Shown here: one piece after another, positions 10,393 to 22,006 of the stretch
How the letters are laid out: every line of letters begins with the position of its first letter
Numbering within the stretch: the first letter of the stretch is position 1
Notes under the pieces: model-generated
Seen by the model: only the letters and a program-made list of their open reading frames with translations
Databases searched by the model: none
Told to the model about the DNA's origin: nothing
Source of the DNA: Desulfobacteraceae bacterium
GTDB lineage: Bacteria > Desulfobacterota > Desulfobacteria > Desulfobacterales > Desulfosalsimonadaceae
NCBI GenBank assembly: GCA_003599885.1
Contig: QZKW01000084.1
Location: 1-34,014 of the forward strand
Length of the DNA: 34,014 bases
Reading direction: 5' to 3'
Program-made: the position numbers and the translations under genes

Positions 10393-11769
10393 ATGACAAA
10401 ATCATCAAATACAGAAGGTTTTACGCGTAAAATATGGAAATTTTTTGCTTCCGTAAAACTGTCTGTGGCGATTCTTCTATCCCTTGCGGCAACATCCATC
10501 ATCGGCACCGTCATTCCCCAGAACGGAAGTGCGGAAGTCTATATTCACCAATATGGAGAGGTTTTTTTTAAATTATTCAATACCCTTGATTTTTTTGACA
10601 TGTACCATTCCTGGTGGTTTCGGGTGCTCCTGTGCCTCCTGACGATCAATCTTATCGTCTGCTCCATCCACCGGCTGACTTCCACCTGGAAAATTATTTT
10701 CCCCGACCACCCTTCTTTTGATGCAAACCGCTTTCAAAATGCGAAAAACCGCCAGGAGTGGACATCCACCAGTTCTCCTGAAACTTTAAAGGCAATGTAT
10801 GATCCTTATATCGGGAAACGGTTCTCAATCTCCCTGACAGAAAAAACCAAAGACGGTTATCTCATCTTTGGGGAAAAAGGCCGATGGACCCGTCTGGGTG
10901 TCTATGCAGTGCATTTGAGCATCATTTTCATGATAACCGGCGGGCTCATTGGATCTATTTTCGGATTTGACGGATCCGTGAATATCCCGGAAGGCCAGTC
11001 AACAGACACGATTTTCCTGCAAAACGACCCGACGGGGAAAAAGCTGGATTTCCAGATACGATGCGAGGATTTTGACTTAAGCTTTTATGATTCAGGTATG
11101 CCAAAAGAATACCGGTCAAGCCTGTCCATTATAAAAAATGGCCGGACAATGGCACAGAAAGATATTATCGTGAATGACCCGCTGAGATTTGAAGGCATCA
11201 ATATTTTTCAATCCAGTTATGGCGAAATGCCATCCGACCGTTTGACTGTTACGTTTACCGAAAGGGAATCCGGCCTTCTGTATGACGTTGAGGCAATGAT
11301 TAAAAAACCCATTGATATGCCAGGCAATTCAGGCAAACTGATCATTGAGGATTTCAGGACCAATTTCTCGTATAGCGGATTCAATCTCGGAAAGACCTTT
11401 ATCTGCACCATGGTCCCCACAGGTGGAGAACCGGAAACGCTGCTGATTTCAGTAGACCACCCCCGTTTTGACATGATGCGACAGGGTGATTTTATTATTA
11501 CCATTTCCAATATTGATTTTAAATACTATACCGGCCTCCAGGTCACCAAAGATCCCGGCGTTCCTGCTGTATACGCAGGGTTTTTATTCATGATCATAGG
11601 ATGTTACATCACATTTTTTATGTTTCATCAAGCCGTATGCATTAAATTATCGACCACCGGCTCCGGCGCTCAAATTGAACTTTCAGGAATATCCGGAAAA
11701 AACCGGCCGGGAATGAACGCCATTATTCTCCGGATGTCCAATCATCTGAAACGGCTCAGCGCGGCTTAA
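10393..11769 (+). CDS. resB: Cytochrome c biogenesis protein ResB (CcsB), System II
   Basis: A 458-residue inner-membrane protein that, with CcsA, forms the System II haem exporter and ligase attaching haem covalently to CXXCH motifs in the periplasm. Three N-terminal transmembrane helices are visible (about residues 19-41, 75-95 and 164-190). A large periplasmic domain follows at about residues 195-385, then a final helix near 390-415 (YAGFLFMIIGCYITFFMF). The opening SVKLSVAILLSLAATSIIGTVIPQ is typical of ResB. ATG 10393 has an ACAGG sequence 8 bases upstream. ccsA starts 14 bases after its stop. Confidence 0.93.
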   Translation: MTKSSNTEGFTRKIWKFFASVKLSVAILLSLAATSIIGTVIPQNGSAEVYIHQYGEVFFKLFNTLDFFDMYHSWWFRVLLCLLTINLIVCSIHRLTSTWKIIFPDHPSFDANRFQNAKNRQEWTSTSSPETLKAMYDPYIGKRFSISLTEKTKDGYLIFGEKGRWTRLGVYAVHLSIIFMITGGLIGSIFGFDGSVNIPEGQSTDTIFLQNDPTGKKLDFQIRCEDFDLSFYDSGMPKEYRSSLSIIKNGRTMAQKDIIVNDPLRFEGINIFQSSYGEMPSDRLTVTFTERESGLLYDVEAMIKKPIDMPGNSGKLIIEDFRTNFSYSGFNLGKTFICTMVPTGGEPETLLISVDHPRFDMMRQGDFIITISNIDFKYYTGLQVTKDPGVPAVYAGFLFMIIGCYITFFMFHQAVCIKLSTTGSGAQIELSGISGKNRPGMNAIILRMSNHLKRLSAA

Positions 11770-11783
11770 AAAAGGACTAACGA

Positions 11784-12629
11784 ATGACCAGTTCTGAAAT
11801 ATTTTCGATTATTACATTTGTATACGGAGCGGCAGCCATACTGTACATGGTTGCATGGGTTTTTAAAAAACCGCTGCCCGGCACTCTGGCCACCGCCACA
11901 CTGGCTGCTGCTGCTTTAGGCAATCTGGCCGGGATTCTTCTCCGGTGGGTGGAATCCCACCAAATGGGAATTGGGCGTCCGCCATTAACCAACCTTTACG
12001 AATCCCTGATCTTTTTCGCCCTGACCATCGCGGTTATTTACCTGTTTGTGGAATTCAAATACAAAATTCGGATTCTTGGAGCGATTGCAGGACCCATGCC
12101 GTTTCTGGCCATGGCCTATGCCTCGCTGCCCAAAGTCAATACCGCCATTCAGCCGCTGATCCCCGCTTTAAAAAGCAACTGGCTGATCGCCCATGTCATG
12201 ACCTGTTTTATCGGATATGCCGCATTTACCATCGCATTTGGCATCAGCATCATGTTTCTCGTCAAGTCTTCGGGAGATGCTCCGTCATCCGGCGCGCAGC
12301 CACTTAGAATGGCCGGCCGGATTCCGGCTTTCGACATTCTGGATGATCTGACACACCAGATGGTGACATTCGGGTTCCTGTTCCTCTCCATCGGCATCAT
12401 TACCGGCGCGGTGTGGGCGAACCAGGCTTGGGGCCGCTACTGGGGCTGGGATCCCAAAGAAACCTGGTCTCTTGTCACCTGGCTGATTTATGCGACCTTG
12501 CTTCACGCGCGTCTGATGCGGGGATGGAGGGGGAAAAATATTGCGGTGCTGTCATGCGTCGGGTTTGTCGCCATGCTGTTTACCTATTTCGGCGTAAACC
12601 TGCTGCCGGGGCTGCACAGCTATCAGTAA
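11784..12629 (+). CDS. ccsA: Cytochrome c biogenesis protein CcsA (ResC), System II haem handling
   Basis: A 281-residue polytopic membrane protein with about eight hydrophobic segments. It has the tryptophan-rich haem-binding WWD motif WGRYWGWDPKETWSL starting at Trp216. Conserved histidines flank it (LIAHVMTC and TLLHARLM), fitting external haem ligation. It partners ResB to hold and deliver haem to apocytochromes. ATG 11784 follows AAAGGA. The position directly upstream of qrcA, a multihaem cytochrome gene, makes functional sense because QrcA needs several covalent haems. Confidence 0.94.
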   Translation: MTSSEIFSIITFVYGAAAILYMVAWVFKKPLPGTLATATLAAAALGNLAGILLRWVESHQMGIGRPPLTNLYESLIFFALTIAVIYLFVEFKYKIRILGAIAGPMPFLAMAYASLPKVNTAIQPLIPALKSNWLIAHVMTCFIGYAAFTIAFGISIMFLVKSSGDAPSSGAQPLRMAGRIPAFDILDDLTHQMVTFGFLFLSIGIITGAVWANQAWGRYWGWDPKETWSLVTWLIYATLLHARLMRGWRGKNIAVLSCVGFVAMLFTYFGVNLLPGLHSYQ

Positions 12630-12739
12630 CAGATATTCCTATTGACAACTGATGCTGAAATCGGTAATCCAATTTTTTTCCAACAAACAAATATTGCAAT
12701 AATTGAAGCAACTAATCCTTGATAAGGATCACAAATCGA

Positions 12740-12763
12740 CCCGTTTAATACGGTCTAAACGGG
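12740..12763. promoter_or_regulatory. Perfect dyad upstream of qrcA (operator or leader hairpin)
   Basis: CCCGTTTA (12740-12747) and TAAACGGG (12756-12763) form a perfect 8-bp inverted repeat around an 8-base centre, 40 bases before the qrcA ATG. It lies in the 174-base ccsA-qrcA gap. It could be a regulator half-site pair or an mRNA 5' hairpin. A weak TTGACA (12643-12648) with TAATCC 16 bases later lies further upstream. No T tract follows, so it is not a standard terminator. Confidence 0.45.
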
Positions 12764-12803
12764 CGCGCCACCACAAACCTCTATAGCTTTGACGGAGTTT
12801 TAC

Positions 12804-13499
12804 ATGAGTAGCACAGACCATCATCATACACATTCAGCAAAGGCAGCGCCAGACCCGGATCATCACGAATCCGGTGCCAGCGGCTCCCAGCCTGCCAAAT
12901 CATCCGGATGGGGCGTTTTTCTATTTTTCATGATCGGCTTTGTGGGAAGTTTGATTTCCGGATGGATCCTGTTTCCGGAGTTGCTCTATTCTAAAAAAAG
13001 CCAGCCCATTGACTTTAACCATTCCGTTCATTTGGACCTGGTCGATGACGGATGCAACTCCTGTCATTTTTTTGAAGAAGACGGCAGCTTTACCGGCATG
13101 CCGGACTTAAGCAAATGTGTCGACTGCCATGAATCCGCCCAGACCGACGACCCGGAAGAAATCAAATTCGTGGATGAATATGTGACACCGGGCATCGAAG
13201 TTCCCTGGCTGAATCATTCCAAACAACCCGATTGCGTCTTCTTCTCCCATTCCGCCCATGTGATGGGTGCAGGCATGTCCTGCGAAAGCTGTCATGGAGA
13301 TATCGGCACGTCCGAGCATACGCGGGTTTACGAGGAGAACAGGCTCACCGGCTACAGCCGCGACATCTGGGGGCATAGCATATCGAGACTCGGCAAGCCC
13401 GAACCCGGGGACCCCCTGCCCATGAAAATGAACGATTGCGCCAAATGCCATGAGGAAGAAACCGGACACAAGGGGGCATGTTTTCAATGTCACAAATAA
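12804..13499 (+). CDS. qrcA: Qrc complex multihaem cytochrome c subunit QrcA
   Basis: A 231-residue membrane-anchored periplasmic cytochrome. It is the entry point for electrons from type I cytochrome c3 into the menaquinone reductase. A His-rich N-terminal tail precedes one signal-anchor helix (about residues 39-58). Five CXXCH haem sites are visible: Cys84-His88, Cys105-His109, Cys160-His164, Cys212-His216 and Cys226-His230. FNHSVH and FFSHSAH look like distal haem ligands of class III cytochromes. The D. vulgaris protein is described as hexahaem; here a lone Cys144 in CVFFSH is the only other cysteine I can see. The chosen ATG has GGAG 6 bases upstream; an earlier in-frame start at 12789 lacks one. 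First of qrcABCD. Confidence 0.92.
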   Translation: MSSTDHHHTHSAKAAPDPDHHESGASGSQPAKSSGWGVFLFFMIGFVGSLISGWILFPELLYSKKSQPIDFNHSVHLDLVDDGCNSCHFFEEDGSFTGMPDLSKCVDCHESAQTDDPEEIKFVDEYVTPGIEVPWLNHSKQPDCVFFSHSAHVMGAGMSCESCHGDIGTSEHTRVYEENRLTGYSRDIWGHSISRLGKPEPGDPLPMKMNDCAKCHEEETGHKGACFQCHK

Positions 13500-13562
13500 T
13501 GGCGTACAAAAACAACCAACCAAAAATTTTCAATCGTTTTTGAAGCATACGAGGATGATTCC

Positions 13563-15854
13563 ATGAAAATTGACCGAAGAAATTTTCTGACATACACGAC
13601 AGCAGCGGTACTCGGCGGCGCGGCAGGTTCCATGCTGACGCCGGCGCCCTGGAAATTGATGGACGATGTGTCCATCTGGACCCAGAATTGGCCGTGGACA
13701 CCGGTTCCGGAAGCCGGACCGGTAACACACAAGCAATCTGCCTGCACCCTTTGCCCCGGCGGGTGCGGAATTAATGTCCGGTTTGTCGGCACCCGTCCGG
13801 TAAAAATTGAGGGATTGAAAGACCACCCGGTGAACAAAGGTTCGCTCTGCCCAATGGGTCTTTCCGGCCTGCAATATGTATACGGACCGGATCGCGTCGG
13901 GTCGCCCCTGAAGCGGGAAGGAAAGCGCGGTGAAGGGAAATGGAAAAAAATCACCTGGAATGAAGCGCTGACGGCTGTTACGGACAAACTTGCCAGTCTG
14001 CGGAAATCGGAAAATCCGCAATCCTTGGCATGCATCACAGGGTCAAGCCGTGGGACTCTTCCCAGCTTGATCGGCCGCTTCCTGACCGTCTACGGTTCCC
14101 CGAATCTGCTTCGTCCGGCCACCGTTCAGGATGCTAACGAACAGGCCCTTTTTCTGACTCAGGGGAAGCAGGGGACACTGGGTTTTGACATTGAAAATGC
14201 TGATTTTATTTTGAGTTTCGGCAGCGGGATTTTAGATGGCTGGGGTTCGCCGGGACGCATGTTCCGTCTTTTTGGAACACGTAAATCCGAGCAACGGATC
14301 ATTCAAATAGAACCGCGCCTGTCCAATACGGCGGCCAAAGCAAGCCGCTGGATCGGCATCAATCCCGGAACAGAAGGTGCTCTGGCCTTAGGTCTTGCCC
14401 ATGTGATCATCAAAGAATCATTATACAATAAAAATTTCATTGAAAAATTTACCTTTGGTTTTAATGACTGGACGGATGATGCCGGTATCACCCATACCGG
14501 ATTTGCGACCCTGGTGGAAGCGTATTCGCCTGAGAAAGTATCTCAAATCACCGGTATACCGAAGCCGTTAATCGAGTCTCTGGCACGGGAATTTGCCGCT
14601 TCACCCAGACCCCTTGCCATAAACGGACGAGGGCAAGGGACATTGCCCGGAAGCATCGATGAAAGCCTTGCCATGCAATCCCTGAACGCGCTGACAGGAA
14701 ATATTAATCAAATTGGTGGGATATATATTGTCCCGGAACAGACTTATGCGAAATGGCCGGATTTGGGCATGGATGCCACGGCATCCAAAGGCATGCAGCA
14801 GCCGCGTATCGATGGCGCCGGCAGCGATCAGTTCCCCAACACCCGTTCCCTTTTAAACCGATTGCCGGGGCTCATCAATTCAGTAAAAGGCGATTCGCCG
14901 GTTCAGGCACTGCTGGTTGTTGACGCCAATCCCATGTACACCCTTCCGGACACGGCTGCTACCCGGAAAGCATTTGACAAGATTCCGTTTATTGTGAGTT
15001 TTTCCTCTTATATGGACGAAACGGCTGCCTATGCCGACTACATTCTGCCGGATCACGCAAATCTTGAACGATATCAGGACATCCCAACCCCGGCAGGTAT
15101 GGCGCATCAGACCATCACCCTGGCCACACCGGTCATAGAGCCGTTGTATGACACCAAACACACCGGTGATGCACTGATCCATATTGCCAAATCGCTGGGT
15201 GGGTTTGTCGAAGAGGCGTTTCCCTGGGACGACTATGAAACCTTCCTGGCTGACACCTTGCAAGACCATTGGAGCGACCTGAAGGAAAAAGGAGTCATTG
15301 AAATCTCCCCAGATTCGAAAGATTCGGCGGTTTTGTCATTTAATACAGCATCTGCAAAATATGAATTTTGTCCTGCTGCTGCCACCCGGCAGGGCAGCAA
15401 AGACAGCAATGCGCCCTCTGCTTATACACCTGCAGCCATAGAAGGGGATGAAAAGCGTTTTAGCCTGTTGCTGGTTCCCTATGATTCCATACGACTGTCC
15501 GGTGAACAAATCGCCAACTCTCCGTTTATGACCAAAACAGTGGAGGCTACGGTACTTAAAAAACAGATGACGCTTGTGGAAATTAACCCGAAAACCGCCA
15601 AAACGCTCGCCTTAAAAGAAGGGAGCAAAGCCGTGTTGACGACTCCAAAAGGCAAGGCATCGGTGATCGTTCATCTGTATGAAGGAATTATGCCCGGTCT
15701 TATCGCGCTTCCCAGAGGACTCGGCCACACCGCATACAGTGAATTCCTGGCGGGTAAAGGGACAAACACCAACGACCTGATCGGTTCCGTTGAAGATCCG
15801 GCCTCTGGATTCGATATGGCATGGGGGATTCGGGCCCAGCTGTCCAAAGCCTAA
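13563..15854 (+). CDS. qrcB: Qrc complex molybdopterin-oxidoreductase-like subunit QrcB
   Basis: A 763-residue periplasmic subunit exported by the Tat route: the N-terminus MKIDRRNFLTYTTAAVLGG has the twin arginine. A [4Fe-4S] motif is formed by Cys61, Cys64, Cys68 and Cys96 (CX2CX3CX27C). The molybdopterin-oxidoreductase fold and the C-terminal dinucleotide-binding domain (about residues 630-760) follow. At the place where Mo enzymes carry a Cys, Sec or Ser ligand, after YGSPN (residues 177-181), I read TVQDANE. No such ligand is evident, consistent with the known absence of Mo in Qrc. ATG 13563 follows GAGG. It is 63 bases after qrcA. Confidence 0.93.
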   Translation: MKIDRRNFLTYTTAAVLGGAAGSMLTPAPWKLMDDVSIWTQNWPWTPVPEAGPVTHKQSACTLCPGGCGINVRFVGTRPVKIEGLKDHPVNKGSLCPMGLSGLQYVYGPDRVGSPLKREGKRGEGKWKKITWNEALTAVTDKLASLRKSENPQSLACITGSSRGTLPSLIGRFLTVYGSPNLLRPATVQDANEQALFLTQGKQGTLGFDIENADFILSFGSGILDGWGSPGRMFRLFGTRKSEQRIIQIEPRLSNTAAKASRWIGINPGTEGALALGLAHVIIKESLYNKNFIEKFTFGFNDWTDDAGITHTGFATLVEAYSPEKVSQITGIPKPLIESLAREFAASPRPLAINGRGQGTLPGSIDESLAMQSLNALTGNINQIGGIYIVPEQTYAKWPDLGMDATASKGMQQPRIDGAGSDQFPNTRSLLNRLPGLINSVKGDSPVQALLVVDANPMYTLPDTAATRKAFDKIPFIVSFSSYMDETAAYADYILPDHANLERYQDIPTPAGMAHQTITLATPVIEPLYDTKHTGDALIHIAKSLGGFVEEAFPWDDYETFLADTLQDHWSDLKEKGVIEISPDSKDSAVLSFNTASAKYEFCPAAATRQGSKDSNAPSAYTPAAIEGDEKRFSLLLVPYDSIRLSGEQIANSPFMTKTVEATVLKKQMTLVEINPKTAKTLALKEGSKAVLTTPKGKASVIVHLYEGIMPGLIALPRGLGHTAYSEFLAGKGTNTNDLIGSVEDPASGFDMAWGIRAQLSKA

Positions 15855-15932
15855 ACCCGGACAAATATGTCTATTAAAACGCTTCTTTAAAGTCGTGTTG
15901 CATAATGATCTAAATTCAACGACGAGGTTTTC

Positions 15933-16751
15933 ATGAAAGAAAAAAACGATTACGAACACTCAAAAAGATACGGCATGGTCATAGACCTGGACAAATGCAC
16001 CGGCTGCGGCTCCTGCATGATCGGCTGTTATACGGAAAACAATGTGCCGTTCAAAGCAGATGAGACCAATAAGCTTGACAGCATCAACTGGATTCAGGTC
16101 TATAAACTGACAAACGGGAAGCCCTATCCGGAGACTGAAATCAGCTATCTTCCCATGCCGTGCATGCAGTGCGACGGCGAGGGCAAGCTTGGCCACTCAC
16201 CATGTGTTTCCGTATGCCCGGCAGTTGCCACCGACTATGACTACAGCACCGGCATCGTCAGCCAGATCTATACCCGATGCTTCGGTTGTCGTTACTGCAT
16301 GGCCGCCTGTCCTTATCACGCAAGAAAGTTCAACTGGTGGGATCCGGTATGGCCGGCAGACATGGAAAAATATCTGAGTCCGGATGTTTCACCCAGAATG
16401 CGCGGTGTGGTTGAAAAATGTTCCTTTTGCTTCCACCGCTACCAGTTGGCCAGAAATAAAGCCTATTATGAAAATCGGCAGACAGAAGAACTGGGCGAGG
16501 ACGAATATCAAACCGCCTGTGCCGAAGCCTGCCCGACTGGCGCGATTACATTTGGCGATTTGAATAATAAGAGCCATGCCGTCTACCAGCTAAAAAACAG
16601 TCCCAATGCATTTCGTCTGCTTGAACGACTGGAAACAAACCCAAAGGTGTATTATCTGTCATCCAAAAAATGGGTGCGCCGTCAGGGGGATAATTATCTC
16701 GCGAATGAAGAACCCGGTTTAATTAAAAAAATAGATAAACAACACCACTAA
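15933..16751 (+). CDS. qrcC: Qrc complex iron-sulfur subunit QrcC
   Basis: A 272-residue ferredoxin-like subunit that relays electrons between the QrcB side and the membrane subunit. Four cysteine groups are visible: CTGCGSCMIGC (Cys22, 25, 28, 32), CMQC...CVSVCP, CFGCRYCMAACP, and CSFC...ACAEACP in the C-terminal third. That is the NrfC/PsrB-type four-cluster pattern. There is no signal peptide; it probably travels with the Tat-exported QrcB. ATG 15933 has GAGG 6 bases upstream. The 78-base gap after qrcB holds only a weak imperfect inverted repeat (GTCGTGTTG/CAACGAC). Confidence 0.93.
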   Translation: MKEKNDYEHSKRYGMVIDLDKCTGCGSCMIGCYTENNVPFKADETNKLDSINWIQVYKLTNGKPYPETEISYLPMPCMQCDGEGKLGHSPCVSVCPAVATDYDYSTGIVSQIYTRCFGCRYCMAACPYHARKFNWWDPVWPADMEKYLSPDVSPRMRGVVEKCSFCFHRYQLARNKAYYENRQTEELGEDEYQTACAEACPTGAITFGDLNNKSHAVYQLKNSPNAFRLLERLETNPKVYYLSSKKWVRRQGDNYLANEEPGLIKKIDKQHH

Positions 16752-16777
16752 ACTGAAATATAGCAAGGAGCAATTCG

Positions 16778-18016
16778 ATGAACGAGACACCATTGATTCC
16801 TGCGGGTGTTAAACGCTGTTCAAAATGGCAGTTTTCTCTCTGGATGGGAGCGGTTACGGCCGTCTTAATCTGGGGTATTTATGCCATGTTTCTCATCTGG
16901 TACAAAGGGCTCAACCAGACCAATATGAATGACGCCTATGGATTCGCCCTATGGATCTGGGCGGACCTGGCCGTGATCGCCTTAGGCGGCGGCGCGTTTT
17001 TTTCCGGGTTTTTAACCTATATTATCGGCAAGGATGACTTAAAAAACATTATCAACTTTGCCGTTATTATCGGGTTTATCTGTTATAGTTCCGCATTGCT
17101 GATTCTGGCCATCGACATAGGCCAGCCGCTTCGGGGATGGTTTATTTTCTGGCACGCCAACGTCCATTCCATGCTAACGGAAGTGGCGTTTTGCCTGTCC
17201 TGCTATTTCGCAGTGCTGACCATTGAATTTATCCCTCTGATTCTTGAAAATCCCAGACTGGCCAAAAAACCATTTCTTCATCATTTGAGCCATAACATGC
17301 ACGGTGTGATGGCTGTTTTTGCAGCTACCGGTGTGTTTTTATCCTTTTTCCACCAGGGCTCCCTCGGGGGAGTAGCCGGGGTTTTGTATGGCCGTCCGTT
17401 TGCCTATCGGGAACATGTTTTTATCTGGCCTTGGACGTTTTTCCTGTTTACCTGGTCAGCAGCCGCCTGCGGCCCTTGCTTCACTATTCTGGTTACCTGG
17501 ATGACTGAAAAGATTACCCGAAAAAAACTCGTTAAACAGGAAGTCATCTGGCTTTTCGCTAAAATTTCCGGTTGGATGATTATTACCTATATCACTGCAA
17601 AAACCATTGATACACTTTACTGGGCCCTTGTCACAGCGCCTTCTAAAGGCTTCACGTTAATGGATTTCTATTCCAGCCCCACGTATAATATCGGGCTCCT
17701 GTTTATCGAAATCGTGCTCTGCGGCTTCGTTCCAGGGCTTATTTTGATCACCCGCCGTGGACGAGAGAATTCATTTTTTCTAATGTCGGCAGTGATTCTG
17801 GCTGTTATCGGCGTTTCTCTCAATCGATGGGTGATGGTGCTTCAGGTCATGGCGGTTCCGTTATTTTCCTTTAATGACTGGTACACCTATATGCCAAGTT
17901 GGCAGGAAGTGGCGACCACTGTCCTTCCCGTGGCTTACGGACTGATTGTGATCTCTCTGGCCTATCGTTACTTACCGGTATTCCCACAGGAACAAGAACT
18001 GAATCCCATCGATTAA
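16778..18016 (+). CDS. qrcD: Qrc complex NrfD-type membrane quinone-binding subunit QrcD
   Basis: A 412-residue integral membrane protein with about ten transmembrane helices, the NrfD/PsrC/ActC architecture in which menaquinone is reduced at the periplasmic side. Typical elements include the LRGWFIFWHANVHSMLTEVAFCLS stretch (residues about 115-138) and HHLSHNMHGVMAVFAATGVFLSFFHQGSLG (about 168-197). ATG 16778 follows AAGGAG, 26 bases after the qrcC stop. A small membrane-protein gene follows 29 bases later and is probably cotranscribed. Electrons from H2 and formate oxidation would enter the quinone pool here during sulfate respiration. Confidence 0.93.
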   Translation: MNETPLIPAGVKRCSKWQFSLWMGAVTAVLIWGIYAMFLIWYKGLNQTNMNDAYGFALWIWADLAVIALGGGAFFSGFLTYIIGKDDLKNIINFAVIIGFICYSSALLILAIDIGQPLRGWFIFWHANVHSMLTEVAFCLSCYFAVLTIEFIPLILENPRLAKKPFLHHLSHNMHGVMAVFAATGVFLSFFHQGSLGGVAGVLYGRPFAYREHVFIWPWTFFLFTWSAAACGPCFTILVTWMTEKITRKKLVKQEVIWLFAKISGWMIITYITAKTIDTLYWALVTAPSKGFTLMDFYSSPTYNIGLLFIEIVLCGFVPGLILITRRGRENSFFLMSAVILAVIGVSLNRWVMVLQVMAVPLFSFNDWYTYMPSWQEVATTVLPVAYGLIVISLAYRYLPVFPQEQELNPID

Positions 18017-18045
18017 CATAAAGGGATATTTAGGAGGGCAACAAA

Positions 18046-18210
18046 ATGTTTCCATTTTGCTTTGAATGGGCTTGGGATATGTCCCATATGGTTTTCATGG
18101 GAGGTTTATGGTACGCACTGTCTATTATCGGCGCGGGATTGACCTTTGCGATTGTCAAATCCATCATGGATATGAAAAGTCATGATGAAAAGGATCACGG
18201 ACATCACTAA
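18046..18210 (+). CDS. 54-aa single-helix membrane protein at the end of the qrc cluster (unnamed)
   Basis: A short frame of 54 codons starts at ATG 18046, preceded by TAGGAGGGC with 6 bases of spacing, one of the best ribosome binding sites in the window. The protein opens with MFPFCFEWAWDMSHMVF, has one hydrophobic helix at about residues 15-37 rich in glycine (MGGLWYALSIIGAGL), and ends in a charged, His-rich tail (SHDEKDHGHH). It begins 29 bases after qrcD and 30 bases before a strong terminator, so it is the last gene of that transcript. I do not recognise a named family. An accessory subunit or assembly factor of Qrc is inferred from position only. Confidence 0.8.
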   Translation: MFPFCFEWAWDMSHMVFMGGLWYALSIIGAGLTFAIVKSIMDMKSHDEKDHGHH

Positions 18211-18240
18211 TAAGTCTGTATTTCAATATTTGTAAACCAT

Positions 18241-18284
18241 AAAAAGCGTTGCCTTGTGCTATTCTGGGGCAACGCTTTTTTTAT
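18241..18284 (+). terminator. Strong rho-independent terminator of the qrc operon
   Basis: AAAAAGCGTTGCC (18241-18253) pairs perfectly over 13 bases with GGCAACGCTTTTT (18268-18280), followed by TTATTT. The A-rich 5' arm would also let it work on the minus strand. It separates the qrc transcript from murA. Confidence 0.9.
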
Positions 18285-18319
18285 TTAAATTTAACCCCTT
18301 AAAAAGAAAAGAATCAAAA

Positions 18320-19585
18320 GTGGACGAAATTATCATAAAAGGCGGGAGATCTCTGAAAGGAGAGGTGATTGTCGGGGGCGCAAAAAATGCGGCGCTTCCC
18401 ATCCTTGCTGCATCACTGCTTGTTGGCGGCAGGTTTACCTTTCATAATGTTCCTGTTTTAAAAGATATTGACAGCATCAAGGAGCTTCTTTCAAACATGG
18501 GGGCGAGTGTGGAAACAGACGGCCATACGGTTTATATTGATACGGCCAACCTGAACTGTTTTGAAGCGCCCTATGAACAGGTTCGAAAAATGCGGGCATC
18601 CATCCTGGTGCTTGGCCCCCTTCTTTCACGAATGAAAAAAGCCAGAGTTTCTCTTCCCGGCGGATGCGCCATCGGAGCGAGGCCCATTGATCTGCACTTA
18701 AACGGGCTGGCTCTTCTCGGGGCGGACATCCGTCTGGAACACGGATATGTTGAAGCAGCCTGCAAGAAGATGAAGGGCGCAGAAATTTATTTTGATGTTC
18801 CGACAGTCACCGGCACGGAAAATCTGATGATGGCAGCGGTTCTGGCTGAAGGAACAACTGTTTTGCGGAATGCGGCCCGCGAACCTGAGATTATCGCTCT
18901 AGCAGATACATTAAACTTGATGGGTGCGGATATTTCCGGAATCGGAACAGCGGTGATCACCATCAACGGTGTCACAAAACTAAGCCCTGTGACGGTCAGC
19001 ATTATTCCGGACAGAATCGAGGCCGGAACGCTGATGGTCGCTGCAGCGCTGACAAAAGGGGATGTCCGGATAAAAAACTGCGATCCGAATCACCTGCAAT
19101 CGATTATTCATAAACTGGAAAAAACAGGTGCTGCCATCGAGGTGTTTGAAGATGCGGTTCGGGTGAAAGGGAGCCATCCTATTCACAGCATTGACATTAA
19201 AACCATGCCCTACCCTGGATTTCCCACGGATATGCAGGCCCAGTTTATGGTGCTGCTGTCCGTAGCTAACGGATTCAGTGTAATCGCTGAAAATATTTTT
19301 GAAAACCGGTTCATCCACGTCAGCGAGCTCTGCCGCATGGGGGCAGACATCACGATTTCAGGAAATCATGCAATGATCAAAGGCGTTTCCAAGCTTTCAG
19401 GTGCCCCGGTAATGGCTACCGATCTTCGGGCAAGCGCTTCATTGATCCTTGCAGGGCTTGTCGCCACGGGAACAACCATTGTCAGTCGGGTGTACCATCT
19501 GGATCGCGGCTATGAGAGTCTTGAAAAAAAACTTGCCTCTCTGGGTGCGACAATTAAACGCGTTAAAGCCCAAAAAAGCTCATAA
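18320..19585 (+). CDS. murA: UDP-N-acetylglucosamine 1-carboxyvinyltransferase MurA
   Basis: A 421-residue cytoplasmic enzyme catalysing the first committed step of peptidoglycan synthesis: transfer of enolpyruvate from PEP to UDP-GlcNAc. The start is GTG 18320, giving MDEIIIKGGRSLKGEV, the canonical MurA N-terminus. An upstream extension in the same frame would run into the terminator hairpin, so it is rejected. Lys-Asn of GGAKNAALPILAASLL (the KN pair that binds substrate) is near residue 22. The PEP-reactive, fosfomycin-target cysteine is Cys116 in GGCAIGARPIDLHL. It is convergent with the ribosomal operon. Its own promoter is not obvious in the 35 bases after the terminator. Confidence 0.96.
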   Translation: MDEIIIKGGRSLKGEVIVGGAKNAALPILAASLLVGGRFTFHNVPVLKDIDSIKELLSNMGASVETDGHTVYIDTANLNCFEAPYEQVRKMRASILVLGPLLSRMKKARVSLPGGCAIGARPIDLHLNGLALLGADIRLEHGYVEAACKKMKGAEIYFDVPTVTGTENLMMAAVLAEGTTVLRNAAREPEIIALADTLNLMGADISGIGTAVITINGVTKLSPVTVSIIPDRIEAGTLMVAAALTKGDVRIKNCDPNHLQSIIHKLEKTGAAIEVFEDAVRVKGSHPIHSIDIKTMPYPGFPTDMQAQFMVLLSVANGFSVIAENIFENRFIHVSELCRMGADITISGNHAMIKGVSKLSGAPVMATDLRASASLILAGLVATGTTIVSRVYHLDRGYESLEKKLASLGATIKRVKAQKSS

Positions 19586-19706
19586 TTGATGTTTGGGGTG
19601 GGGTATTGTGCGATCACAGCATTCATTCCTCGCCTGCCCTGCATTGAGATTTACACTGATTAGCCGGGCAGCCTCGATTGCACAGATCACATAATCTTTA
19701 AAATAA

Positions 19707-19752
19707 GAAAGCCTTGACCACTTTATTCATATAAAAAGTGCCCAAGGCTTTC
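19707..19752. terminator. Long hairpin terminator between rplQ and murA
   Basis: GAAAGCCTTG (19707-19716) pairs with CAAGGCTTTC (19743-19752). Inside this, CACTTT pairs with AAAGTG across a 2x2 internal loop. On the minus strand the stem is followed by TTATTTT, so it best serves the ribosomal operon 20 bases after the rplQ stop. On the plus strand it lies 122 bases after murA with a poorer tail and may act for both. Confidence 0.75.
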
Positions 19753-19772
19753 ATGTATTAAGGATGGATCTT

Positions 19773-20222
19773 TTATTCCTGAGCTTTTTTGGCCTTTTTG
19801 ACCGCTTTTTCAGGTTTCGAGGCTTTATCCGTACTTTTTTTGGCCGGTTCTTTGGTATCCTCAAAAGGCTTCCCGGTCAATTCAACCAGACACAAAACAG
19901 CAGCATCTCCTTTACGAATGCCGACTTTCACCAACCGGGTATACCCTCCGGCCTGATCACCGAATCGTTCTGGGGCATATCCAAACAATTGATGCACCAC
20001 ATTCTTTTCCTGAATGATTGCCATTGCCTGCCTTCTGGCGTGAAGGTCCCCCCGCTTTGCAAGAGTAACCAGTTGATCCGCCCAACGTCTCAATTCTTTT
20101 GCTTTGGGATCTGTTGTCTGGATCCGGCCAAATTTAAATAGTGACGTGACCATATTGCGAAACATGGCACTACGATGACTGCTTGTTCTGTTTAATTTAA
20201 CTCCGCTCTTTCGATGTCTCAT
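19773..20222 (-). CDS. rplQ: 50S ribosomal protein L17
   Basis: A 149-residue large-subunit protein near the exit tunnel. The N-terminus MRHRKSGVKLNRTSSHRSAMFRNM is the canonical L17 opening, and the core runs to about residue 118 (GIRKGDAAVLCLVEL). The C-terminal 30 residues are a Lys/Ala-rich tail (KKSTDKASKPEKAVKKAKK), an extension beyond the minimal fold and common in this phylum. It starts 6 bases after the rpoA stop and is the last gene before the terminator. Confidence 0.96.
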   Translation of the reverse strand: MRHRKSGVKLNRTSSHRSAMFRNMVTSLFKFGRIQTTDPKAKELRRWADQLVTLAKRGDLHARRQAMAIIQEKNVVHQLFGYAPERFGDQAGGYTRLVKVGIRKGDAAVLCLVELTGKPFEDTKEPAKKSTDKASKPEKAVKKAKKAQE

Positions 20223-20228
20223 AAAGCG

Positions 20229-21257
20229 TTATTCCCCTTGATCCATATTATCATCTTCATCAGGCGGTTGAAAGCCTTCAATGTTCATACCGAGCGCCAG
20301 CCCTAATTCGGCCAGCAGTTCCTTAATCTCATTTAACGATTTTCTACCAAAGTTTTTGGTTTTCAGCATTTCAGTTTCAGATCTTTTAACCAACTGGTAG
20401 ATTTTTGTGATGTTTGCATTACGCAAACAATTGGCGCTTCGAACAGAAAGCTCAAGTTCATCCACATCAAGATATAAATTTTCATTATGATTGGGTTTTG
20501 AATCTTCTGATGGCTTATCCGTTAAAGCAGGTTCGATTTCTTCATCAAAATTGATAAAAACATTCATCTGCTCTTTTAAAATCTTTGCGGCAAAAGCAAT
20601 CGTATCTTCAGGTCTTACTGAGCCGTCTGTCCAGACTTCCATGGTGAGTTTGTCGTAATCCGTTCTCTGCCCCACACGGGCGTTGCTGATACGGTAATTC
20701 ACACGATTGATCGGCGAAAAAACAGAGTCTATAGGAAGTGTGCCCACAGACGCATCATCATCCTTGTTGGATTCAGCCAAAGCGTATCCTTTTCCTGCTT
20801 TGACCATCATTTCAACCCTGAATTTGGCATCCGCTGACAAAGTCGCTATGTGTTGATCCGGGTTCATAATTTCAACCTTACCGTCTTTGCTGACAATATC
20901 ACGGGCAGTTATTACGGATTCACCGGTCTTATTAATTTCAATAACTCGTGGCGTTGCATCATTCATTTTAACACGAACATTTTTCAGATTGAGGATAATA
21001 TCTGAAACATCTTCTAAAACACCCGGGATGGTAGAAAACTCGTGCATAACACCATCAAACTTTACAGATACGATGGCAGAGCCGCAGAGAGAAGAAAGAA
21101 TAATCCGTCGTAATGAATTACCAATCGTGATGCCAAAGCCTCGCTCAAGCGGTTCCCAGACAAACTTTCCGTAAGTTGAGGTCTGACTGACGACCTGAAC
21201 TTTTTCCGGAATAATTCTATCCCGCCAGTTCATAAACGTAATTTCACTCAATGACAT
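20229..21257 (-). CDS. rpoA: RNA polymerase alpha subunit
   Basis: A 342-residue subunit that dimerises to nucleate RNA polymerase assembly. The N-terminal domain (about residues 10-240) has the SLRRIILSSLCGSAI dimer helix. The C-terminal domain (about 265-325) has ELSVRSANCLRNANI and the NFGRKSLNEIKELL helix-hairpin-helix that contacts UP elements and activators. An acidic tail (PPDEDDNMDQGE) ends the protein. ATG 21257 has GGAG 7 bases upstream; Met9 is a weaker alternative. A 119-base AT-rich gap separates it from rpsD, long enough for an internal promoter, but I see no convincing box pair. Confidence 0.97.
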   Translation of the reverse strand: MSLSEITFMNWRDRIIPEKVQVVSQTSTYGKFVWEPLERGFGITIGNSLRRIILSSLCGSAIVSVKFDGVMHEFSTIPGVLEDVSDIILNLKNVRVKMNDATPRVIEINKTGESVITARDIVSKDGKVEIMNPDQHIATLSADAKFRVEMMVKAGKGYALAESNKDDDASVGTLPIDSVFSPINRVNYRISNARVGQRTDYDKLTMEVWTDGSVRPEDTIAFAAKILKEQMNVFINFDEEIEPALTDKPSEDSKPNHNENLYLDVDELELSVRSANCLRNANITKIYQLVKRSETEMLKTKNFGRKSLNEIKELLAELGLALGMNIEGFQPPDEDDNMDQGE

Positions 21258-21376
21258 CTCTTGTCTCCAAAAATGTTAATATGCCCATTTTGTTTCTTTA
21301 TAGACATGAAATACAGGAGAGAATGCAATGATCAAATAAATTGAGAACCAAATAGGTAATTCGGACAAAAATTACA

Positions 21377-22006
21377 TTACCTGGAATACAATTCTACAAT
21401 CTGATTCTCCTGAATCGGCATTGTGATATCTTCTCGAGCAGGAACACTTCTGATGGTACCTTTAAATTTGTCCTTTTCAAGATCTAACCACTGAGGCATA
21501 CTTCTCCGAACAACGGCTTCAAGAGAATCGGTAAATACCTGCATACTCCTGCTCTTTTCGCGTAGTTCAATAACATCTCCCGCCTTGACCTGATATGATG
21601 GTATATCAACTTTTTTACCGTTAACCAAAAAATGGCCATGTCTGACGAGTTGGCGCGCCTGAGGACGAGAGTTGGAAAACCCTAAGCGAAAAACGGCGTT
21701 ATCAAGGCGTTGTTCGAGCGAGAGCAATAGATTGATACCAGTGATGCCCTTTTTTCGATCAGCTTTTTCAAAGGTCAGCTTAAACTGGCTTTCTGAAAGA
21801 CAATAACTACGCTTTACCTTCTGTTTTTCTCGAAGTTGAAGACCATAATCCGAAATTTTACCACTTCTCCGCTGGCCATGCTGTCCCGGCGGATAGCTCC
21901 GTCGGTCGAAGGCGCACTTATCTGAATAGCACCGATCACCTTTCAGATATAATTTTAAATTTTCCCGTCGGCAAAACCGACAAACAGAACCTGTATAGCG
22001 TGACAA
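21377..22006 (-). CDS. rpsD: 30S ribosomal protein S4
   Basis: A 209-residue primary 16S rRNA-binding protein of the small-subunit body, and in many bacteria the translational repressor of this operon. The N-terminus contains four cysteines (Cys9, Cys12, Cys26, Cys31), the zinc-binding C+ form. The S4 RNA-binding domain lies at about residues 98-160 ([28 protein letters not shown]). The start codon is TTG at 22006, supported by GGGAGG 5-6 bases upstream; no ATG fits the family N-terminus. A 126-base gap precedes it. Confidence 0.96.

Follow-up and report, generated by a model that had tools for sequence, protein, structure and literature searches.

A gene of 54 codons closes the qrc operon of a Desulfobacteraceae bacterium (contig QZKW01000084.1; the window is the whole stretch of 34,014 nucleotides that was analysed), and its product almost certainly works with Qrc, the menaquinone reductase encoded by that operon. 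Across 524 Desulfobacterota genomes the small gene is present in 256 of the 261 with QrcD and in 1 of the 263 without it. Since it nearly always accompanies Qrc and almost never occurs in its absence, Qrc probably has an unrecognised fifth part, and we propose the name qrcE for the gene. A sequence-only reading of the locus had suggested a fifth subunit or an assembly factor, a suggestion now supported by synteny, dN/dS and co-occurrence with QrcD.

The operon and its signals are arranged as follows.

12789–13499, + strand: qrcA, multihaem cytochrome c subunit (NF041781, 251 bits, cut-off 180)
13563–15854, + strand: qrcB, molybdopterin-binding-like subunit (NF041783, 500 bits, cut-off 440)
15933–16751, + strand: qrcC, iron-sulfur subunit (NF041782, 438 bits, cut-off 400)
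16778–18016, + strand: qrcD, NrfD-type integral membrane subunit (NF041784, 669 bits, cut-off 570)
18031–18039, + strand: ribosome binding site TAGGAGGGC, six bases 5′ of the ATG (from the sequence)
18046–18210, + strand: the small gene (qrcE proposed), 54 codons and TAA (from relatives, dN/dS and QrcD co-occurrence)
18241–18280, + strand: terminator-like hairpin closing the transcript, 16 pairs and a T run (hairpin search)

QrcA, QrcB, QrcC and QrcD each exceed the cut-off of their own NCBIfam equivalog model. The qrcD stop codon (TAA, 18014–18016) is followed after a 29-base gap by the ATG of the small gene, whose translation is MFPFCFEWAWDMSHMVFMGGLWYALSIIGAGLTFAIVKSIMDMKSHDEKDHGHH (54 residues, then the TAA stop). 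The frame, its ribosome binding site, the spacing from qrcD and the position before a terminator had all been described from the letters of the window and are confirmed in the sequence. Terminator-like hairpins number 8 in 12000–19500 against a mean of 8.6 in shuffles, and the one at 18241–18280 has the longest stem. The gene 3′ of the hairpin encodes an EPSP-synthase-family enzyme (PF00275), by our own reading of the MurA type. Directly 5′ of qrcA (10393–12629) are ResB-like and cytochrome c assembly genes; a similar neighbourhood (ccsAB) is reported for Desulfococcus multivorans in the text available of PMC5109826. A search of 17900–18420 against Rfam gave no match, and an RNA element at the site of the small gene was rejected.

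Open frames as long as this one arise readily by chance (positions 11000–22000 of the window are overlapped by 61 mechanical ORFs of 45 residues or more), so the case for a gene rests on conservation. Scanning GTDB genome contigs with the window protein finds 123 relatives, the best 80 of which were kept for locus analysis. Within these best 80 of 123, qrcD is upstream of the small gene in 78, and the contigs of the other two (L026 and L079) start 71 and 88 bases before it; conserved synteny was one of the checks set by the sequence-only reading. The gap to qrcD has a median of 25 bases and lies between 10 and 50 bases in 64 of the 78 loci, with extremes of −1 and 510. All 80 kept loci have an ATG start at the same place, and in 76 of them GGAG, AGGA or GAGG is found no more than 20 bases before it. 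The alignment of the window sequence with 50 of the 80 relatives (A1, 51 sequences) has the consensus MFPFxFEWxWDMSHxVFMGGLWYALSIIGxGMTYCIIKAxxDT...HH. Purifying selection, the other check that had been set, is evident from dN/dS (Nei-Gojobori), with a median of 0.11 and a maximum of 0.31 over 95 close pairs (synonymous difference 0.05–0.65; the pairs share sequences and are hence not independent); the window and its nearest relative, L004, give 0.109. A chance frame without a product is common enough at this length, yet 123 relatives, a dN/dS of 0.11, a shared ATG position in 80 of 80 kept loci and the co-occurrence with QrcD make it vanishingly improbable here, and it was rejected on conservation and dN/dS. 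The small frame is a real, conserved gene under purifying selection. As read, the QrcC frame of L035 (5888-6682) and the QrcD frame of L069 (6581-7927) each contain one in-frame stop, which may be a sequencing error, a broken gene or a coordinate error.

The protein divides into three parts.

18046–18087, + strand: N-terminal segment MFPFCFEWAWDMSH, residues 1–14, predicted periplasmic; P3, E7, W8, W10, D11 and H14 conserved
18088–18156, + strand: single transmembrane helix, residues 15–37 in our delimitation; F17, G19, G29 and G31 conserved
18157–18207, + strand: C-terminal tail, residues 38–54, predicted cytoplasmic; K38, D42 and the terminal His conserved

Conservation was counted over 129 distinct proteins, left from 148 entries once duplicates and entries with undetermined residues were dropped. 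P3 and F17 are invariant (100%), followed by H14 (94%), G29 and G31 (93%), G19 (92%), W10 (90%), W8 (89%), D11 and K38 (86%) and D42 (82%); the W, D and H residues that had looked conserved in the single sequence are indeed so. The tail noted there as His-rich keeps a His among its final three positions in 121 of the 129 proteins and ends in HH in 92; the stretch preceding these histidines is variable, both in length and in composition. Lysine and arginine are more numerous after the helix than before it in 119 proteins, equal in 10 and fewer in none, and by the positive-inside rule this bias predicts that the N terminus is in the periplasm and the C terminus in the cytoplasm. In three families (f45, f75 and f91; L152-L159) the unlinked relatives are longer at the N terminus; the added part includes a few basic residues in a row (for example LKRSVSSMLPWDIPWYDPSH) and is possibly a second amphipathic helix.

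Co-occurrence with QrcD was examined in three draws of genomes. The first consists of 297 genomes drawn evenly from the phylum, 61 of which match the QrcD model at E ≤ 1e-60. Profile A1 matches 57 of the 297 at E ≤ 0.01, and 56 of these have QrcD; the 57th (G206), without QrcD, matches at E 0.0065 in a 252-residue frame and is not reported with the second profile, A2. For A2 (49 rows) the window was aligned with what A1 had found in other families and with further members; this profile matches 60 genomes at E ≤ 2.6e-14, and its next match (1.2e-4) lies in a long frame. With A2 the small gene is present in 60 of 61 QrcD genomes and in none of the 236 without QrcD, a count that is partly circular, as A2 holds sequences from some first-draw genomes, the A1 result being much less so. 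The sole exception, G002, is 66% complete and has qrcD at a contig end. Fisher's test on the first draw gives p = 1e-62 and ignores shared ancestry, so agreement within families (f2, f45 and f48) is the better argument: in f2, G036 has both genes and G275 neither, in f45, G037 and G233 stand against G073 and G106, and in f48 presence and absence agree in 95 of 99 genomes.

DsrA, a marker of sulfite reductase, separates Qrc from sulfate reduction at large. It is found in 144 of the 297 genomes, and the small gene is carried by all 54 that also have QrcD and by none of the 90 that do not; 6 of the 7 QrcD genomes without DsrA have it. Because no DsrA-positive genome lacking QrcD carries it, the small gene tracks Qrc and not sulfate reduction, and a general sulfate-reduction gene was rejected by this control.

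Two further draws, largely held out and adding 227 new genomes, cover family f48 (99 genomes, QrcD in 79 and the small gene in 77) and the window's order (146 genomes, QrcD in 134 and the small gene in 133). Together they give the small gene in 196 of 200 QrcD genomes and in 1 of 27 without QrcD. Summed over the three draws, both genes occur in 256 genomes, QrcD alone in 5, the small gene alone in 1 and neither in 262. Two of the five QrcD-only genomes (G002 and G496) are incomplete, two (G330 and G357) have QrcD-like matches of 383 and 357 bits, under the cut-off of 570, and the last (G389), at 97% completeness and with QrcD at full score, either truly lacks the gene or has a gap in its assembly. 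Searched loosely for the small gene, these five gave nothing better than E 0.24. The one genome with the small gene and without QrcD, G328, is 72% complete. The presence of the small gene thus follows QrcD even when a long chromosomal distance separates them, a stricter test than that proposed in the sequence-only reading.

QrcD and the small gene are both present twice in two genomes, G443 and G483, each small gene lying no more than about 310 bases downstream of a QrcD gene. Contamination is 8% in G443 and completeness 64% in G483, and the double pairs may reflect duplication or mixed bins. QrcD-like proteins scoring 357–451 bits, below the cut-off of 570, occur in three f48 genomes (G330:C14:12157-13305, G357:C284:13501-14643 and G356:C45:20796-22004), with the small gene present in G356 and absent in the other two. 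They possibly belong to a separate NrfD-type complex or to a diverged Qrc.

The small gene is linked to qrcD in some families and unlinked in others. Of the 60 first-draw genomes, 29 from 13 families have it after qrcD and 31 from 10 families have it unlinked, and none of these 23 families mixes the two forms. For 29 of the 31 unlinked genomes the copy is on another contig than qrcD or far away from it, among other genes, some of the contigs being short. The two forms are homologous: A1 aligned with A5, an alignment of 20 unlinked sequences, gives an hhalign probability of 99.0% (E 7e-18). In f48 a small gene beside qrcD was not found in tables read by eye, and the unlinked copy lies among genes of the rRNA dimethylase and MutS2 types (Pfam RrnaAD for L146), with an rRNA-dimethylase-type N terminus no more than 1.5 kb away in 18 of the 20 f48 loci inspected. 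Other unlinked contexts are phosphomannomutase with sugar-nucleotide genes, TatC with PhoH, and a short-chain dehydrogenase with a methyltransferase. A replacement small gene beside qrcD in the unlinked families was rejected: the ORFs starting no more than 450 bases from qrcD were listed, up to four per locus, at 18 loci (several being the same genome twice, L127 having only 70 bases left, and L117, from the window's order, lying outside the set) and no related protein was seen by eye.

The most telling unlinked context is that of family f18, which has a class III cytochrome c gene divergently adjoining the small gene in four of its five genomes (G009, G113, G142 and G083), with 21 to 278 bases between the frames.

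L160:4357-4797, L161:4282-4821, L204:433-864 and L205:3197-3637: class III cytochrome c genes of f18 (Pfam)

The encoded cytochromes have four CxxCH motifs and are class III by Pfam; two were also run against NCBIfam and do not reach the TmcA cut-off. Qrc receives its electrons from TpIc3, itself a class III cytochrome c (PMC13059093, in the text available), and class is the feature that the f18 proteins are seen to share with it. In f76 (L167) a class III cytochrome c gene is about 2 kb from the small gene. Adjacency cannot be judged in the fifth f18 genome, G047, because its contig begins about 200 bases upstream of the small gene. The G047 copy (L206:171-362) has no ATG, GTG or TTG near its AGGAGG site, so that it has either an unusual start codon or a sequence error.

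No family model in Pfam, NCBIfam or PHROGs matches the protein convincingly. Searches of 49 members against Pfam and NCBIfam gave no match better than E 0.02, the weak ones being scattered over unrelated families, and with PHROGs included the best values remain between E 0.02 and 0.05; a phage-type family was rejected, none being found in PHROGs. Profile A2 against all PDB chains gave a best E of 0.35, to unrelated proteins. Mirror-tree analysis of the 38 loci holding all genes gave partial correlations, given MurA, of 0.51 with QrcA and 0.28 with QrcD, which fell to about 0.20 for both once nine loci close to the window were dropped, and for this reason it was set aside as evidence. An AlphaFold2 model was made of relative L021, where QrcD, a linker and the small protein form a natural read-through (92 rows). 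The fused model (pTM 0.81) has one helix at 470–503, with mean pLDDT in ten-residue blocks from 471 of 67, 83 and 90, then 73 with the tail. The model of QrcC, QrcD and the small protein is poor (pTM 0.60). By Foldseek the nearest PDB entries to the fused model are chains C and F of alternative complex III (ACIII), a fold match indicating that modelled QrcD is ActC-like and nothing more.

The published composition of Qrc has four parts. In the text available, it is given as four subunits, four genes or QrcABCD (PMC13059093, PMC6303296, PMC5109826, PMC11887813, PMC10553843), and as four genes in strain G20 (PMC4215793), which matches the QrcABCD composition assumed in the sequence-only reading; the portions consulted of PMC8076601, PMC10102598 and PMC5928083 do not state its make-up. 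No fifth component appears in these portions, and the founding paper (Venceslau et al., 2010) may hold a remark on one. A whole-word literature search for 'qrcE' returned, among the matches listed, papers on electrochemistry by title. Native and recombinant Qrc purified from N. vulgaris show four subunits on gels, and the term mass spectrometry is absent from the main text of that paper (PMC13059093). As described there in the sections seen, deletion of qrcABCD abolishes growth of N. vulgaris on H2 or formate with sulfate, and qrcABCD alone in trans restores it. In Desulfococcus multivorans all four Qrc proteins are abundant, and the text consulted names no fifth (PMC5109826).

We think it likely that the small protein is a stable accessory subunit, QrcE, of the Qrc menaquinone reductase, and predict that the two associate physically. 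It would cross the membrane once, N terminus periplasmic and C terminus cytoplasmic, and pack beside the ten-helix QrcD. The conserved periplasmic segment (P, W-x-WD, H) would face QrcC, QrcA and the side of the menaquinone site, and the terminal histidines of the tail would lie on the proton-uptake side of Qrc. Its job is likely to be structural, clamping the membrane module and its neighbours as single-helix subunits do in other respiratory complexes. A more active part in the energy-conserving machinery, with the tail collecting or gating cytoplasmic protons towards the periplasmic menaquinone site, is distinctly unlikely; were it true, the electrogenic unit would be QrcCD with the small protein and not QrcCD alone.

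A place in the operon between a ribosome binding site of its own and a terminator-like hairpin, the synteny with qrcD, the low dN/dS, the co-occurrence and its agreement within families, the paired copies in G443 and G483, the homology of linked and unlinked forms, the f18 cytochrome and the charge bias (119:10:0) all favour a subunit. Against it are the five QrcD-only genomes, G328, the start of the G047 copy, the fallen mirror-tree signal, the poor model of QrcC, QrcD and the small protein, and the four gel bands of the purified enzyme (PMC13059093, as far as its text was seen), on which a protein of about 6 kDa is easily missed. Rescue by qrcABCD in trans would not conflict with a subunit if N. 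vulgaris keeps the small gene elsewhere, as f48 does. The same co-occurrence and linkage would be expected of a dedicated assembly or stability factor, present in biogenesis and absent from the finished enzyme, acting for example in QrcD insertion or in joining QrcA and QrcBC to QrcD. Such a factor would account for purified Qrc with four visible subunits (PMC13059093, same sections), and unlinked copies in 10 of 23 families would suit a protein free of strict stoichiometry. However, the position in the operon behind the final subunit gene, seen in 13 families, and the matched copy number in G443 and G483 suit a stoichiometric part slightly better, and four bands are compatible with a subunit of about 6 kDa; we regard an assembly factor as rather unlikely.

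The f18 cytochromes also raise the idea that the small protein acts in docking or in a supercomplex, recruiting cytochrome c3, hydrogenase or formate dehydrogenase for Qrc, as a class III cytochrome c gene adjoins in 4 of 5 genomes there and the conserved W/D/H segment is predicted to be periplasmic. Yet the close cytochrome context is confined to one family, that of f76 being about 2 kb away, and the stretch predicted to lie in the periplasm is short (about 14 residues in the protein of the window), and docking seems improbable. More improbable still is a protein that acts elsewhere and is merely co-inherited with Qrc. The unrelated neighbours in unlinked families (rRNA dimethylase/MutS2, phosphomannomutase/sugar, TatC/PhoH, dehydrogenase/methyltransferase) would allow for it, but these neighbours vary by family and the association with QrcD does not, none of the 90 DsrA-positive genomes without QrcD has the gene, and it is a member of the qrc operon in 13 families.

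The small protein represents a new family of a known kind, the small accessory proteins found in respiratory complexes, and in the genomes sampled it is close to universal where Qrc occurs. It is absent from the portions examined of published Qrc accounts and is unlinked in many families. That it escaped notice could be explained by this, because deletion and complementation of qrcABCD leave an unlinked copy intact. The mechanistic work of 2018 and 2026 and its mutants rest, in the text available, on a four-part composition, and a fifth component would belong in Qrc structures, reconstitutions and heterologous expression. For annotators the gene offers a small diagnostic family, which no Pfam or NCBIfam model matches convincingly.

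The small protein shares an operon with QrcABCD, the cytochrome c3:menaquinone oxidoreductase, in 13 families and shares genomes with it with few exceptions; it is not among the four parts of the complex as described in the accounts available. CydX of cytochrome bd and CcoQ of cbb3 oxidase are single-helix subunits of respiratory enzymes. The small protein resembles them in size, in its single helix and in a gene at the operon end in many genomes, but none of the weak Pfam and NCBIfam matches of the 49 members is a subunit of that kind. The closest structural relative of Qrc is ACIII, which likewise has small parts beyond its redox core (ActD, ActG and ActH). One helix is predicted for ActG, and it took cryo-EM and mass spectrometry to reveal ActH, according to the text seen of PMC5928083. 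In sequence the small protein has no significant match to PDB chains, those of ActD and ActH included (best E 0.35); for ActG that structure shows no density. ActH lies in the periplasm, and only R. marinus and its close relatives are reported to have it; the small protein is nearly as widespread as Qrc. By analogy, ActH is a precedent for an overlooked part of such a complex.
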